This document shows, piece by piece, positions 35,413 to 40,667 of a DNA stretch of 64,000 nucleotides. Source of the stretch: Dethiobacter sp. (GTDB lineage Bacteria; Bacillota; Dethiobacteria; Dethiobacterales; Dethiobacteraceae); contig DYEY01000077.1 of NCBI GenBank assembly GCA_020725465.1, positions 1 through 64,000 on the forward strand, read 5' to 3'. Every line of letters starts with the position of its first letter. Position 1 is the stretch's first letter. The position numbers were made by a program, and so were the translations under genes. Under the pieces are notes generated by a model. The model did no database searches. It was not told the DNA's origin and saw only the letters and a list, made by a program, of their open reading frames with translations.

Positions 35413-36162
35413 ATGAACAGGTTTTTTTTCAGCCCCGACCAGTTAAATGACGGTTTTATTATACTGACGGGGGAAGATGCCCGCCACCTCTCCCGCGTGC
35501 TGCGTGCCTCTGTGGGAGACAGGGTGGAGCTTTGCGACGACGGTGGTTGCTGCCGGTCCGCTGTTATTGTGGCGCTGGACAGGTCCCGGGTGATTTGCCG
35601 GCCTGAGGAAGACCGGCTGCCGTCTGGCGAAGCGTCGGTATATGTTACCCTTGCCTTCGGCCTGCCCAAAGGGGACAAGGCTGATCTGACAGTGCAAAAA
35701 GTAACCGAGCTGGGCGTAGCCTCCCTGATTCCTTTTTACAGCGGGCGCACGGTGCCGCGTCCCGCTGCACATAAAGAAATGGGCCGGCAGGAGCGCTGGC
35801 AAAGGATTGCCCGGTCGGCAGCCGCCCAGTCGCGGCGCAGTCGGGTGCCCCCGGTCGCTCCGGTTTGTTCGTGGCGGGAACTGCTGGCCTTATTTGCAGG
35901 TTACCACAGGGTAATACTGTTTTACGAGGGCGAAAGGAAAAACACGCTTAAGGCCGCCCTGGCAGGACTTTCCGCCGGGGAAAAGGTGCTCCTTGTTACC
36001 GGTCCTGAGGGAGGCTTTACCGCAGCGGAAACGCGGGAAGCGCTTGATAAAGGGGCGGCGGCCGTGACGTTGGGGCCGCGGGTCCTTCGTGCCGAAACAG
36101 CGGCCGTTACCGCGGTTGCCCTTACACTGTATGAGGCGGGCGAGATGGGGGGCGGGCGATGA
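35413..36162 (+). CDS. rsmE: 16S rRNA (uracil-1498-N3)-methyltransferase
   Basis: Methylates U1498 of 16S rRNA. The 249-residue SPOUT-class product has the N-terminal PUA-like domain (LTGEDARHLSRVLRASVGD) and the knotted C-terminal domain with GLPKGDKADLTVQKVTELGV and the SAM-binding VTGPEGGFTAAE followed by LGPRVLRAETA. The ATG is at the base after the prmA stop. It overlaps mtaB by 4 nt (ATGA). Confidence 0.95.
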   Translation: MNRFFFSPDQLNDGFIILTGEDARHLSRVLRASVGDRVELCDDGGCCRSAVIVALDRSRVICRPEEDRLPSGEASVYVTLAFGLPKGDKADLTVQKVTELGVASLIPFYSGRTVPRPAAHKEMGRQERWQRIARSAAAQSRRSRVPPVAPVCSWRELLALFAGYHRVILFYEGERKNTLKAALAGLSAGEKVLLVTGPEGGFTAAETREALDKGAAAVTLGPRVLRAETAAVTAVALTLYEAGEMGGGR

Positions 36163-37454
36163 AATCGGTGGCATTCCTTACCCTCGGCTGCAAAGTGAAC
36201 CAGACCGAAACCGCTTCCATGCGCCGGCTGTTCGAAGAGGCTGGCTACCGTACGGTGGACTTTAACAGCGTTGCCGATGTTTACGTGATCAACACCTGTA
36301 CGGTGACACACCTGGGCGACCGCAAATCGCGCCAGGCGGCCCGGCGCGCCCGGCGCATCAATCCCGGGGCGGTGGTGGTGGTTGCCGGCTGCTATGCCCA
36401 GGTCGCGGCGGAGGAGGTAATGGCAATCCCGGAGGTGGACCTGGTGGTGGGGACCCATGACCGGGACAGTTTGCCGTTCCTGGTGGAGGAAGCAAAAAAA
36501 GGCCGCCTCAACCGCGTTACGCCCCTGACCGAAAAAACAAGTTTTGAAGGGCTGCCAGCGGCGCAGTCCGGAGACAGGACCCGGGCTTTCCTGAAAGTAC
36601 AGGAAGGCTGCCGCCAGTTTTGTTCTTACTGTATTGTCCCTTACGCCAGGGGCCCTCTGTACAGCCGCCCCGTGCAGGAAACTGTGGAGGAAGCGAACCG
36701 CCTGGCACGGGAAGGGTTCCTGGAACTGGTTCTGACCGGTGTCCACCTCGGCTCTTACGGGGCCGACCTGGACGGCAGGCCGGCTTTAAGCGACCTCCTG
36801 ACGGAACTGGCAAAGGTTGAAGGTATAAAAAGGATAAGGATTTCATCGCTGGAACCCACGGAAATAACGGCGGCCCTGGTGGAAGTGATGGCGGCTGAGC
36901 CGAAGATATGCCCCCATTTGCATATACCCCTACAGTCCGGCGATGACACGGTGCTGCGGCGGATGAACAGAAAATACACGGCGTCGGAGTTCCTGCGCCT
37001 GGTCCGGTGGTTGCGGAACAGGATACCGGGCGTAGCGCTGACCACTGACGTCATGGTGGGTTTCCCGGGGGAAACAGATGCGAATTTCGAGCGCACCCTG
37101 ACTTTGGTAAAAAGATGCCGCTTCAGCCGCCTGCACGTCTTTAAATACTCCCCCCGGCGCGGCACCCCCGCTGCCCGCTTTCCCGGCCAGGTCCCACACC
37201 GGGTAAAAGAGGAAAGAAGCCGCCTCCTCACTGAGCTGGGCAGGGAGCTGGCAGCTGATTTCAACAGCAGTTTTATCGGGCGGACAGTGGAGGTACTGTT
37301 TGAAGAGGAGGCGGACCCTGGCACGCTGGCTGGCCTGACCCCTCACTACGTGCGGGTTGAGGCCAAAGCGCCGCCGGAGTTGCGTGGCCGCCTGGCGCTG
37401 GTGCTGGTGACCGGCAGCGGGCAGGAAACCCTCCTGGGCAACTTAAGCGGATAA
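36159..37454 (+). CDS. mtaB: tRNA t6A37 methylthiotransferase MtaB
   Basis: A radical-SAM enzyme that converts t6A37 of tRNA to ms2t6A. The 431-residue product has the N-terminal UPF0004 domain with three cluster cysteines (FLTLGCKVNQTETASM, INTCTVTHLGD, VAGCYAQVAAEEV), the radical-SAM CxxxCxxC motif in EGCRQFCSYCIVPYARGP, and a C-terminal TRAM-type domain. It is the last gene of the hrcA operon, overlapping rsmE by 4 nt, and a hairpin follows it. Confidence 0.95.
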   Translation: MKSVAFLTLGCKVNQTETASMRRLFEEAGYRTVDFNSVADVYVINTCTVTHLGDRKSRQAARRARRINPGAVVVVAGCYAQVAAEEVMAIPEVDLVVGTHDRDSLPFLVEEAKKGRLNRVTPLTEKTSFEGLPAAQSGDRTRAFLKVQEGCRQFCSYCIVPYARGPLYSRPVQETVEEANRLAREGFLELVLTGVHLGSYGADLDGRPALSDLLTELAKVEGIKRIRISSLEPTEITAALVEVMAAEPKICPHLHIPLQSGDDTVLRRMNRKYTASEFLRLVRWLRNRIPGVALTTDVMVGFPGETDANFERTLTLVKRCRFSRLHVFKYSPRRGTPAARFPGQVPHRVKEERSRLLTELGRELAADFNSSFIGRTVEVLFEEEADPGTLAGLTPHYVRVEAKAPPELRGRLALVLVTGSGQETLLGNLSG

Positions 37455-37457
37455 ATT

Positions 37458-37483
37458 ATGCCGTCCGGCGAACCGGACGGCAT
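37458..37483. terminator. Hairpin between convergent mtaB and agrD
   Basis: ATGCCGTCCGG (37458-37468), loop CGAA, CCGGACGGCAT (37473-37483): an 11-bp perfect stem with a GNRA-like loop. No long U run on either side. Its position between converging genes suggests a two-way terminator. Confidence 0.7.
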
Positions 37484-37489
37484 CAGCGT

Positions 37490-37624
37490 TTATAAGACCT
37501 GTTTCTTTAAAGCCCCGGGCAGCTCCGGCTGGTACCAGATGACATAACAGGCGGAAGCGGCACCGGAGAGCGCCACCAGTGCCAGCAGACCGGCGACAAG
37601 CGCCAAAAGCCTCTTTTTCACCAT
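37490..37624 (-). CDS. agrD: AgrD-like cyclic lactone autoinducer peptide precursor
   Basis: A 44-codon gene too short for ordinary gene finding. The product has a basic amphipathic leader (MVKKRLLALVAGLLALVALS), a core with a single cysteine, C26, in SACYVIWY, and the C-terminal recognition tail QPELPGALKKQVL, matching the conserved 'PE-P--L-K' tail of AgrD peptides. AgrB-type proteases cut at the tail and close a thiolactone on the cysteine; the mature signal is likely a ring starting at C26 (five or six residues, CYVIW or CYVIWY). AAAGGAGG lies 4 nt before the ATG. It follows agrB by 112 nt on the same strand, and a perfect 0A box lies in that gap. Confidence 0.88.
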   Translation of the reverse strand: MVKKRLLALVAGLLALVALSGAASACYVIWYQPELPGALKKQVL

Positions 37625-37688
37625 AAAACCTCCTTTCGGCATTATATGCTGGTAAGAAATTCCCTAAAAAAGAAAAAAATCCTGCGCA

Positions 37689-37695
37689 TGTCGAA
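37689..37695. promoter_or_regulatory. Candidate Spo0A binding box upstream of agrD
   Basis: TGTCGAA is a perfect match to the 0A box TGnCGAA. It lies in the agrB-agrD gap, 65 nt upstream of the agrD start. A 7-nt match in about 110 bp on two strands is expected by chance about once in twenty such gaps, so this is suggestive only. It would place agrD under the master sporulation regulator. Confidence 0.35.
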
Positions 37696-37736
37696 ATGTT
37701 ACAGGAAATAACAGGAAAATCTGTTTCAGTTGTCGT

Positions 37737-38354
37737 TTATTGCCTTATAAAGCTGAAAAGCCTGCTTATTATCGACATAAAACTATAACCGGCGGGGGTA
37801 AGCAGCAGCGACTGCCAGAGAATGCCCAGGTTGCCGCCGGCATAGTAGTAAAGGAACGGGTTTTTGGTTAACCACAGGCTGGTTCCCAGTATGCTCCAAC
37901 CCAAAAGCAGCAGAAAAGACAGGGTGCGCAGAATCCGCCGCTGCCTGGCGGAAGTAATAGGTTTTTGCGGCACATCGGCAGGCGCGAACAAAAAGGTGCT
38001 GACCAGCGCCAGGGCTGGCGCGCCGGCCAGGAACAACGGCGAGGATGCAAGGCCGGCCGCAAAAAGCCGGGTGCAGGCTGCCGCGGCGGTGATGACGGCG
38101 GTTCCGGTTACCGTGCAGGTCAGGAGTGTGTCGCAGTGCGCTCCTCCGCTGACCTTGCGGAAAGCCATTACCACCAACGTGATAAACAGCGCTTCTTTCA
38201 ATACACCAAGCAGGGCGCCAATAGCCGCCAGGACCAGCAGGTTCAGGGTTGTGGCCATAAATGACAGCAGGCCGTAATTGATTATCTCTGCCTGGTCCTG
38301 CGTCAGGTGCAGCTCCTGCTCCAGATAACGGACCAACCTCTGGGCAAGCCTCAT
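37737..38354 (-). CDS. agrB: AgrB-like peptide-processing membrane protease
   Basis: Processes AgrD: cuts its C-terminal tail and helps form the thiolactone ring. The 205-residue product has about five to six membrane helices and the family motif FRKVSGGAHCDTLLTC, with H73 and C80 seven residues apart as the catalytic His and Cys of S. aureus AgrB (H77, C84). Length is typical. It starts 2 nt after the preceding membrane-protein gene, so both are coupled. It is unusual that agrD follows agrB with a 112-nt gap instead of a few bases. Confidence 0.93.
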   Translation of the reverse strand: MRLAQRLVRYLEQELHLTQDQAEIINYGLLSFMATTLNLLVLAAIGALLGVLKEALFITLVVMAFRKVSGGAHCDTLLTCTVTGTAVITAAAACTRLFAAGLASSPLFLAGAPALALVSTFLFAPADVPQKPITSARQRRILRTLSFLLLLGWSILGTSLWLTKNPFLYYYAGGNLGILWQSLLLTPAGYSFMSIISRLFSFIRQ

Positions 38355-38356
38355 TT

Positions 38357-38851
38357 CTATTGCCCCCAGGGACGGTATGACCTTACATGCCGGTAACCGC
38401 TGCGGTGGAACCCCCGCATGCGGTAGGCAACAAGCGCGGACAGGGCCAAAAACATCTGCTGCGGCAGGGTTACCAGCACCCTGAGCCAGGGGTTCGCCGC
38501 CACCTGTTCATAGCTTAGGGCAAAGAATGAGAGCGCCACAGGAGTGAAAAGCAGTTCCGCAAATATCAGGACAGCCAAGGCGAGAATGACCGCGAGCAGC
38601 GCTTTACGGTAGGGCATCCGGTTCAGAGCGAACAAATACAATGAGTTGAATACTGTAATCACCAGGGTATGAATGCCCGGAAAAACCGGGGCCTGGCGCA
38701 CCAGGTAGGCTGTGGCGGCAAAGAGGGTCCCGTATGCCAGAATAACTTTAAAACGGGGACGAACAGCAACCAGTGACAGGCCCAGTGTCCCGTGTAGCAT
38801 TCCTTCGGGCACAGCGTACAGAACAATAGCACTAAAAGGGATTTTGTCCAC
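38357..38851 (-). CDS. Multi-helix membrane protein of the agr locus (AgrC sensor-domain-like, no kinase)
   Basis: A 164-residue hydrophobic protein with about five to six membrane helices (from PFSAIVLYAVPEGMLHGTLG to the Arg/His-rich end MRGFHRSGYRHVRSYRPWGQ). It has no kinase or other soluble domain. The middle section, VRQAPVFPGIHTLVITVFNS, reminds me of the N-terminal membrane domains of clostridial AgrC/GHKL sensor kinases; this is from memory and not proven. Between a kinase gene (5 nt upstream) and agrB (2 nt downstream), it may be a stand-alone receptor for the peptide. The start is GTG at 38851 with GAAGGAGG about 10 nt upstream. Confidence 0.72.
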   Translation of the reverse strand: MDKIPFSAIVLYAVPEGMLHGTLGLSLVAVRPRFKVILAYGTLFAATAYLVRQAPVFPGIHTLVITVFNSLYLFALNRMPYRKALLAVILALAVLIFAELLFTPVALSFFALSYEQVAANPWLRVLVTLPQQMFLALSALVAYRMRGFHRSGYRHVRSYRPWGQ

Positions 38852-38856
38852 AGGGC

Positions 38857-39969
38857 TCAGGCCTCCTTCTTTTGTTTACCCGGAAGTTGATTGCCGGCGG
38901 GAAAACAGAGCGTGAAACGGCTGCCCTGTCCCGGTTTGCTTTCTACGCTGATATGGCCGCCGTGGGCGTTTACCACTGCCTGGGAGATGGAAAGTCCAAG
39001 ACCGGTGCCATGCTCCCTGGTGGTGAAAAAGGGAGCAAAGATTTTCGGCATTAATTCCCTTGGTATACCGTCCCCCGTATCTGACACAGTGACTTCGACT
39101 TTACTGCCGTCCGGGGACAAACCGGTGGCGATTGTGAGCGTGCCTCCCCGGGGCATGGCCTGGATGCCGTTGACGCACAGGTTAAGCAGAGCCTGTATCA
39201 GCTGCTCGCGGTCCACTTCCAGCAAGGGGACACCAGGGTCTTTATGCAGGACAACTGTGACATTGCTGCGCGCCGCTTCACCGGCAATCAGTGTAACGGC
39301 GGTTTCCGCCAAATTATTCAGGCAGACTGCCGCCAGGTCCGGCCGGGAGGGGCGGCTGAACTTCAGAAAATCACTGACAATCTGGTTTGTCCTTTTTATT
39401 TCTTCTATCAGTATATCGAAAATTTCCCTGTCCTGCGCGTTCCGGCGCAGGATCTGGAGGTACCCCTGAACCACCGTGAGGGGATTGCGGATTTCATGGG
39501 CGATTCCGGCGGCTATTTCTCCGGCCAGGGCCAGTTTCTCGATGTTTTTGGCCTGTTCGTAGAGTTCTTTGTTCCGGGCCATCTGCCTTTCCACATTTTC
39601 ATAATTTTCCCTTAACCAGTCGGTGGCGATGGCGGTGAGGAAATACAGTGCGAGGAAAGGGAAAAGCTCCAGTTCACCGGGTGTAAGGTTGGTGAAAGTG
39701 GTACCGGCTGGGATGAAAAAGAAAACAACCAGGAAGCTGCTGGCAATTGTCAGCACTATGCCGGGTTTAAAACCGCAGTAATAAGTCACGGCAAAAATCA
39801 CGATGAAAAAAAAGTAGGTTAACAGTCGCGCCTCCTGCCGAGCCAGAAGCCCGAAAAAGTAAACCGCCGCTATTGTGGCAAAGAACAGGAGAGCCAGGAT
39901 GAAGACGGCCAGTTTCAGGCCGGGGTGGAAGGAACGCTCGCCGAAAAAAGTCTCAAGCAGGCGGCCCAT
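38857..39969 (-). CDS. Membrane sensor histidine kinase of the agr locus
   Basis: A 370-residue kinase. Four hydrophobic helices in residues 18-116 resemble the DUF4118/KdpD-type membrane domain (LTYFFFIVIFAVTYYCGFKP). A coiled segment leads to a HisKA domain with phosphate-accepting H158 (GIAHEIRNPLTVVQGYLQIL) and an ATPase domain with N box LLNLCVNGIQAMPRGG, G1 VSDTGDGIP, F box FAPFFTTR and G2 HGTGLGLSISQAV. The H box is of the NtrB/sporulation-kinase type, not the AgrC (HPK10) type. No response regulator is adjacent, as for orphan kinases feeding Spo0A. It is the first gene of the kinase-membrane protein-agrB-agrD set; AAGAGGTGAATA precedes the ATG. Confidence 0.92.
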   Translation of the reverse strand: MGRLLETFFGERSFHPGLKLAVFILALLFFATIAAVYFFGLLARQEARLLTYFFFIVIFAVTYYCGFKPGIVLTIASSFLVVFFFIPAGTTFTNLTPGELELFPFLALYFLTAIATDWLRENYENVERQMARNKELYEQAKNIEKLALAGEIAAGIAHEIRNPLTVVQGYLQILRRNAQDREIFDILIEEIKRTNQIVSDFLKFSRPSRPDLAAVCLNNLAETAVTLIAGEAARSNVTVVLHKDPGVPLLEVDREQLIQALLNLCVNGIQAMPRGGTLTIATGLSPDGSKVEVTVSDTGDGIPRELMPKIFAPFFTTREHGTGLGLSISQAVVNAHGGHISVESKPGQGSRFTLCFPAGNQLPGKQKKEA

Positions 39970-40127
39970 TATTCACCTCTTATTTTTTGACAGTTTTCTA
40001 CATTTTTATTATTTCGACGGGTGGAATCTTTTACCTTCTTGATCTTTATAATTTTCTGGCGACAAGCATATTTTTTTTTCAGGTGAATAGGATGGAAAGG
40101 AAAAGACAGGCGGAAAGAGGTGGATAT

Positions 40128-40667
40128 ATGCGTAGGAGGCTGTTTGTGGTGGAGGCAAGGCGGTTACTCCCGCTCTTGTTCCTCCTGGTCCTGCTGGTGT
40201 CCTTGTCCGTCTATGATACTTTCCGGACCAGTCCCACGGTAGTCCCCAAAGAGTCTGCCAGGGGGAGTGAAGTCAAGACCACCACGGTCGACAAGGGTGA
40301 GAGGAAGGAAATGCCGTCCTTCCGCCTGGCACTGGATGAGGAAGGTTGGGCGGAAATCGCAAAAGAGTGGTCCGTGGCACTGCCGCAGTACCCGTTTCAG
40401 CCGCAGCACGAGGTTGCCCTGTTTGCCCTGCATGCCGAGATACAGAAAGTGGAAACAGTCGCTACCGGTGATGGCGAGCTGGAAGTCAGGGTGAGGGTGG
40501 CGCCGAAGCGGGACAATTACCAGGTGGTGGCAATGCCGGCCAAGGATGTGGTACTGGTGGCAGGCCGCACTACCTGGACTTTTGTAGACAAAAAGGGCGC
40601 TGTTATAGAGCAGTTTACTGTGGGGGAAGTCACGCAGACCTCCGCCGGTGAGGTGCCAAAGAAATAG
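40128..40667 (+). CDS. Membrane-anchored protein divergent from the agr kinase, unrecognised
   Basis: A 179-residue protein with a basic N-terminus (RRRLFVVEARR), one membrane helix (LLPLLFLLVLLVSLSVYDTF) and a soluble, probably external part of about 140 residues rich in beta-like alternation (VALFALHAEIQKVETVATGD, ELEVRVRVAPKRDNYQVVAM). I do not recognise a domain. I chose the ATG at 40128 (GAGGTGG upstream); ATG at 40092 is also possible, adding 12 residues. It has its own promoter region shared with the divergent kinase and ends at a strong two-way terminator. Confidence 0.65.
   Translation: MRRRLFVVEARRLLPLLFLLVLLVSLSVYDTFRTSPTVVPKESARGSEVKTTTVDKGERKEMPSFRLALDEEGWAEIAKEWSVALPQYPFQPQHEVALFALHAEIQKVETVATGDGELEVRVRVAPKRDNYQVVAMPAKDVVLVAGRTTWTFVDKKGAVIEQFTVGEVTQTSAGEVPKK

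Follow-up and report, generated by a model that had tools for sequence, protein, structure and literature searches.

How is the peptide signal of an agr locus perceived when neither of the usual receptor genes accompanies it? Canonical agr systems are encoded as agrBDCA, with an HPK10-type AgrC kinase and an AgrA regulator. In the window analysed here, a stretch of 64,000 nucleotides from Dethiobacter sp. (contig DYEY01000077.1), agrB and agrD instead follow the genes of a kinase of a different type, P0001, and of a small membrane protein, P0002. We propose that this is an agr operon in which the AIP receptor is split over P0002 and the HisKA kinase P0001, and which signals to an unlinked regulator; we put the probability of this reading at roughly 0.7. 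The features of the locus are as follows.

36159–37454, plus strand: mtaB, the convergent neighbour on the agrD side
37458–37483, between agrD and mtaB: 11-bp hairpin with a UUCG loop (-22 kcal/mol, z -5.1)
37490–37624, minus strand: AgrD (P0004), 44 aa
37737–38354, minus strand: AgrB (P0003), 205 aa
38357–38851, minus strand: membrane protein P0002, 164 aa
38857–39969, minus strand: kinase P0001, 370 aa
39987–40667, plus strand: divergent neighbour protein on the kinase side, without a Pfam family

Transcription runs from the kinase through P0002 and agrB to agrD, with gaps of 5, 2 and 112 nt; the preliminary description had reported four minus-strand genes with this spacing and no response regulator at the locus, and all four open reading frames are indeed present, with no regulator adjoining them. 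The order is not due to chance, because the same order recurs in seven diverged relatives. The hairpin between agrD and mtaB is terminator-like, with an only weakly T-rich tail, and was missed by a simple scan; an Rfam search of the agr locus returned no RNA match, and a promoter scan of the locus gave hits at chance level. The protein of ~180–220 aa encoded divergently to the kinase position (39987–40667 in the window; also at L203, L205, L206, L209 and L211) is conserved, and keeps its position even in genomes without the kinase and agr genes.

AgrB matches PF04647 (Pfam, 2.7e-34) and its GGAH..C motif is invariant, with H73 (38136–38138) and C80 (38115–38117) identical in all eight sequences aligned. 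AgrD scores 40.5 bits against TIGR04223 (NCBIfam; cut-off 19) and shows the leader, ring and Pro-containing conserved tail expected of an AgrD propeptide. Its longest open reading frame begins at 37642; we favour ATG 37624 or GTG 37621 as the start, on the basis of a Shine-Dalgarno sequence and the starts in relatives. The predicted ring (37535–37549, minus strand) is probably a five-residue thiolactone, C-Y-V-I-W, by analogy with known AIPs (PMC12312760), and alignment with relatives reveals YQPELPxxL(K/R) as the conserved tail that follows it. In the AgrD homologues at L060, L062, L066, L070 and L083 a Ser replaces the ring Cys, hence lactone rather than thiolactone peptides are predicted at these loci.

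The kinase had been described as a non-AgrC enzyme with a DUF4118-like domain and an NtrB/sporulation-type H box, and the Pfam and NCBIfam matches agree: HATPase_c (3e-28), HisKA (2e-17) and DUF4118 (1.4e-7), the N-terminus being a short DUF4118-like TM domain. The H-box reads AGIAHEIRNP, with the histidine at position 158 (codon 39496–39498). P0001 is an orphan HisKA kinase without an adjacent regulator, in a genome that encodes Spo0A.

P0002, earlier characterised as a multi-helix protein without a kinase domain, fits that description, having 164 residues, five TM helices and no family in Pfam or NCBIfam. Its AlphaFold2 model is a confidently predicted five-helix bundle (residues 6–27, 34–53, 58–77, 81–110 and 121–145; mean pLDDT 86.6); a PDB sequence search gave no match at E < 0.1, the model had no fold match at E < 1 among solved structures, and a search for phage copies found none. 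Profile comparison was more informative: in hhalign, the P0002 family aligned with the N-termini of agr-linked GHKL kinases at 100% probability (E 7.5e-41, 176 columns), compared with about 1% in control alignments against AgrB and against the kinase. Alignment to the sensor of one Bacilli AgrC, represented by a single sequence from a Priestia plasmid, gave 3.8%, a level at which no homology could be detected. By sequence homology, P0002 is a detached AgrC-type sensor domain, of the kind otherwise fused to SPOB_a-GHKL kinases, and we propose it as a receptor subunit for the AIP. The suggestion in the preliminary description that membrane protein and kinase together form a split receptor is thereby supported and strengthened, because the membrane protein corresponds to the part of AgrC-type kinases that acts as the sensor domain.

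The distribution of this sensor in other Bacillota is instructive. A 37-member profile of the P0002 family, used on 399 Bacillota genomes, found the family in 159, mostly as free ORFs of ~150–240 aa or as the N-terminus of ORFs of ~440–490 aa. We inspected the 60 best-scoring of these Bacillota matches together with 36 loci of the class Dethiobacteria, outputs being labelled by small local profiles that were checked against Pfam on examples; as the phylum loci are the best-scoring matches, the shares of the three arrangements that emerge are not population estimates. In the first arrangement, the sensor domain is fused to a GHKL kinase (23 proteins; Pfam SPOB_a and HATPase_c_5 in the two that were checked), and 14 of 22 fused kinases are encoded close to AgrB and a LytTR regulator in the same orientation; by architecture and neighbourhood, these long forms are AgrC. 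In the second (13 loci), the sensor is a separate gene beside an SPOB_a-GHKL kinase, usually of ~285 aa, that retains only about two TM segments, the two genes being 0–50 nt apart in all but one case; on their domain content these loci are AgrC cut at the junction of sensor and kinase. In most other cases the sensor gene and agrBD adjoin the gene of a GGDEF-HD enzyme or of a HisKA kinase, with 36 and 25 such copies, respectively, in the family tree set. When copies near a contig end are left out, AgrB lies within 3 kb of 66 of the 72 free-standing sensors, and a signalling enzyme within 3 kb of 71. The Dethiobacteraceae sensors group with the AgrC-fused and AgrC-split copies and not with the GGDEF-HD group (SH-aLRT 97; midpoint root).

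The GGDEF-HD outputs and the HisKA outputs from outside Dethiobacteraceae share an N-terminal multi-TM domain of ~190 aa (hhalign 99.7%, E 1e-26; L064, L065, L060, L070, L147 and other loci), which is a candidate docking part. The TM domain of P0001 is shorter, and its resemblance to that of the other outputs is weak (hhalign 66% over 51 columns). We consider it fairly probable that these loci represent a class of agr systems across Bacillota, in which the AIP sensor of AgrC is a free, exchangeable subunit for a GHKL, HisKA or hybrid kinase or for a GGDEF-HD c-di-GMP enzyme.

Two further features of the free-standing copies were observed. At 10 of 71 loci the free sensor gene is present in two or three copies, mostly in tandem (L064, L065, L067, L025, L137, L140, L145, L151, L159 and L162), which may reflect heteromeric receptors or several peptide specificities. 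A sensor-agrB-agrD-GGDEF-HD arrangement is found on a plasmid record labelled Klebsiella pneumoniae (L195, NZ_CP061968.1), which is probably Bacillota DNA wrongly assigned.

A genome-collection scan with an AgrB alignment identified relatives that carry the agr locus. The four-gene order, for which a search in related genomes had been suggested, is kept in seven other Dethiobacteraceae, at identities of about 28–52% for the membrane proteins and about 42–54% for the kinases; in one of the seven, the membrane-protein gene is present three times in tandem. Among 98 genomes of the class Dethiobacteria, the P0002 family occurs in 27 and AgrB in 29. The two apparent exceptions that have AgrB are G067, where a distant member of the P0002 family adjoins agrB, and G066, which has a more ordinary AgrC with a borderline match to the P0002 family. 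The preliminary description had raised the possibility that membrane protein and kinase occur mostly without agrBD in relatives; all 27 genomes with the P0002 family also encode AgrB, and kinases without the cassette are a minority (4 of 12 in Dethiobacteraceae).

The close association of sensor and agrB, the sensor gene nearly always accompanying agrB and usually lying directly upstream of it, is also in keeping with an accessory function, in which P0002 would be a partner of AgrB in making or exporting the peptide, and the AIP would be sensed by the kinase alone or by an unlinked kinase. MroQ is a partner of AgrB in Staphylococcus aureus. Such a role would likewise fit the observation that, where the cassette is missing, the membrane protein goes with agrBD and not with the kinase. 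We nonetheless regard it as unlikely, as the same domain forms the N-terminus of the 23 fused GHKL kinases, 13 more kinases lack exactly this part and have a free sensor gene alongside, and a peptide-processing factor would be unexpected as the sensor of a kinase.

Genomes in which the cassette is absent inform on the relationship between P0002 and the kinase. A full-length kinase orthologue is encoded in 12 of 20 Dethiobacteraceae genomes, four of which (G006, G007, G008 and G010) lack the sensor-agrB-agrD cassette. At the shared syntenic site, the kinase is followed immediately by mtaB in G008 and G010; the contigs of G006 and G007 break off behind the kinase, and genome-wide searches for AgrB and the sensor gene found neither in these two genomes. 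Five genomes are without the kinase too, and there mtaB directly faces the neighbour gene. The cassette is always accompanied by the kinase (8/8 genomes in the order). In a tree of a neighbouring gene, which is of low resolution, the cassette-less genomes fall into two separate lineages. Of the columns that are otherwise invariant, their four kinases keep 60 of 63 in the catalytic domain but 12 of 22 in the TM domain. In a control in which pairs of sequences were left out, cassette-bearing pairs kept 86% of the TM columns against 61% for a cassette-less pair, the corresponding values for catalytic columns being 92% and 94%. This relaxed conservation, which derives from only two independent cassette-less lineages, fits a kinase TM domain that contacts the sensor.

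The same genomes bear on the proposal that the kinase works independently, as an orphan sensor of some other signal, with the adjoining sensor-agrBD cassette reporting elsewhere. Retention of the kinase at the same site in four genomes without the cassette, its own TM domain and the unchanged catalytic constraint are each consistent with this proposal, and the kinase, equipped with such a domain and retained in two cassette-less lineages, may also work without P0002. Full independence is, however, improbable in our view, given that a cassette without the kinase is never seen, that the gene order is conserved in all eight genomes with both, that the gap between kinase and sensor in the window is 5 nt, and that the TM domain is less conserved in the cassette-less genomes.

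A genome-wide search for an AgrC/AgrA pair outside the locus, which the preliminary description had considered as a challenge to a split receptor, found none. The whole genome has one AgrB and one P0002 homologue; it encodes a single LytTR regulator, the partner of a LytS-type kinase beside CstA, and its sole GHKL kinase over the cut-off is of the DcuS/CitA type, has its own regulator and adjoins a TRAP-type binding protein. A genome without AgrC and AgrA is also what a degenerating canonical agr locus would leave, functionless after the loss of both, but this is hardly credible with four intact open reading frames conserved over deep divergence, the conservation extending to H73 and C80 of AgrB and to the ring and tail of AgrD.

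In the split-receptor mechanism that we favour, AgrB would mature AgrD to a cyclic AIP with a CYVIW thiolactone, which P0002 would sense. Within the membrane, P0002 would associate with P0001 through the short TM domain of the kinase and switch autophosphorylation of the latter; phosphate would then pass from P0001 to an unlinked response regulator. We infer the pairing because the gene order is conserved, because sister sensor genes adjoin sensor-less kinases, and because TM conservation is lost where the sensor is absent; an unlinked regulator is proposed because AgrA is not encoded. Spo0A is a plausible but unproven target of P0001, either directly or via a relay, and its presence is not specific evidence because nearly all Dethiobacteraceae genomes have it. 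None of the receiver domains inspected was a clear Spo0F candidate; of two small receivers considered, one is a CheY encoded within a CheA cluster, and the other adjoins a sensor kinase.

The locus resembles canonical agrBDCA in its AgrB (PF04647, with the catalytic His and Cys) and in its AgrD (TIGR04223; a ring of five residues is predicted, and the tail is conserved), but differs in that both AgrC (HPK10/GHKL, SPOB_a) and a linked AgrA (LytTR) are missing, the sensor being a separate gene and the kinase of the HisKA type. Peptide genes without adjacent agrCA are shared with clostridial agrBD loci known from reviews (PMC12312760), examples being C. difficile agr1 and C. perfringens agrBD (PMC8534292, PMC7492741, PMC12312760). 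In those loci, the receptor is unknown or is an unlinked full kinase, whereas the present operon includes both a kinase and a detached sensor of the AgrC type. VirS is the proposed receptor in C. perfringens (PMC7492741), the mode of action of C. difficile AgrD1 has been called unknown (PMC11210211), and an AgrD-type peptide has been reported from C. thermocellum, its receptor not being known (PMC5322536). P0001 is also reminiscent of the orphan sporulation kinases (KinA–KinE and clostridial; PMC11210211), having a HisKA-HATPase architecture, NtrB/AtoS/KinD-like, without an adjacent regulator, in a genome that encodes Spo0A; unlike them, it shares an operon with the genes of a peptide signal and of the proposed sensor of that peptide. 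We found no description of a split AgrC or of an agrBD-GGDEF-HD operon in the open-access literature.

For many agrBD loci no receptor can be recognised, and a small, uncatalogued sensor that can be found by profile search provides candidate receptors for such orphan loci. The arrangements described here suggest that the targets of agr peptides can include orphan kinases and c-di-GMP enzymes, beyond AgrA alone. If the sensor is indeed an exchangeable subunit, one peptide chemistry would lead to either phosphorylation or second-messenger outputs. Two-gene receptors would also let peptide sensing be studied separately from the kinase step of AgrC.
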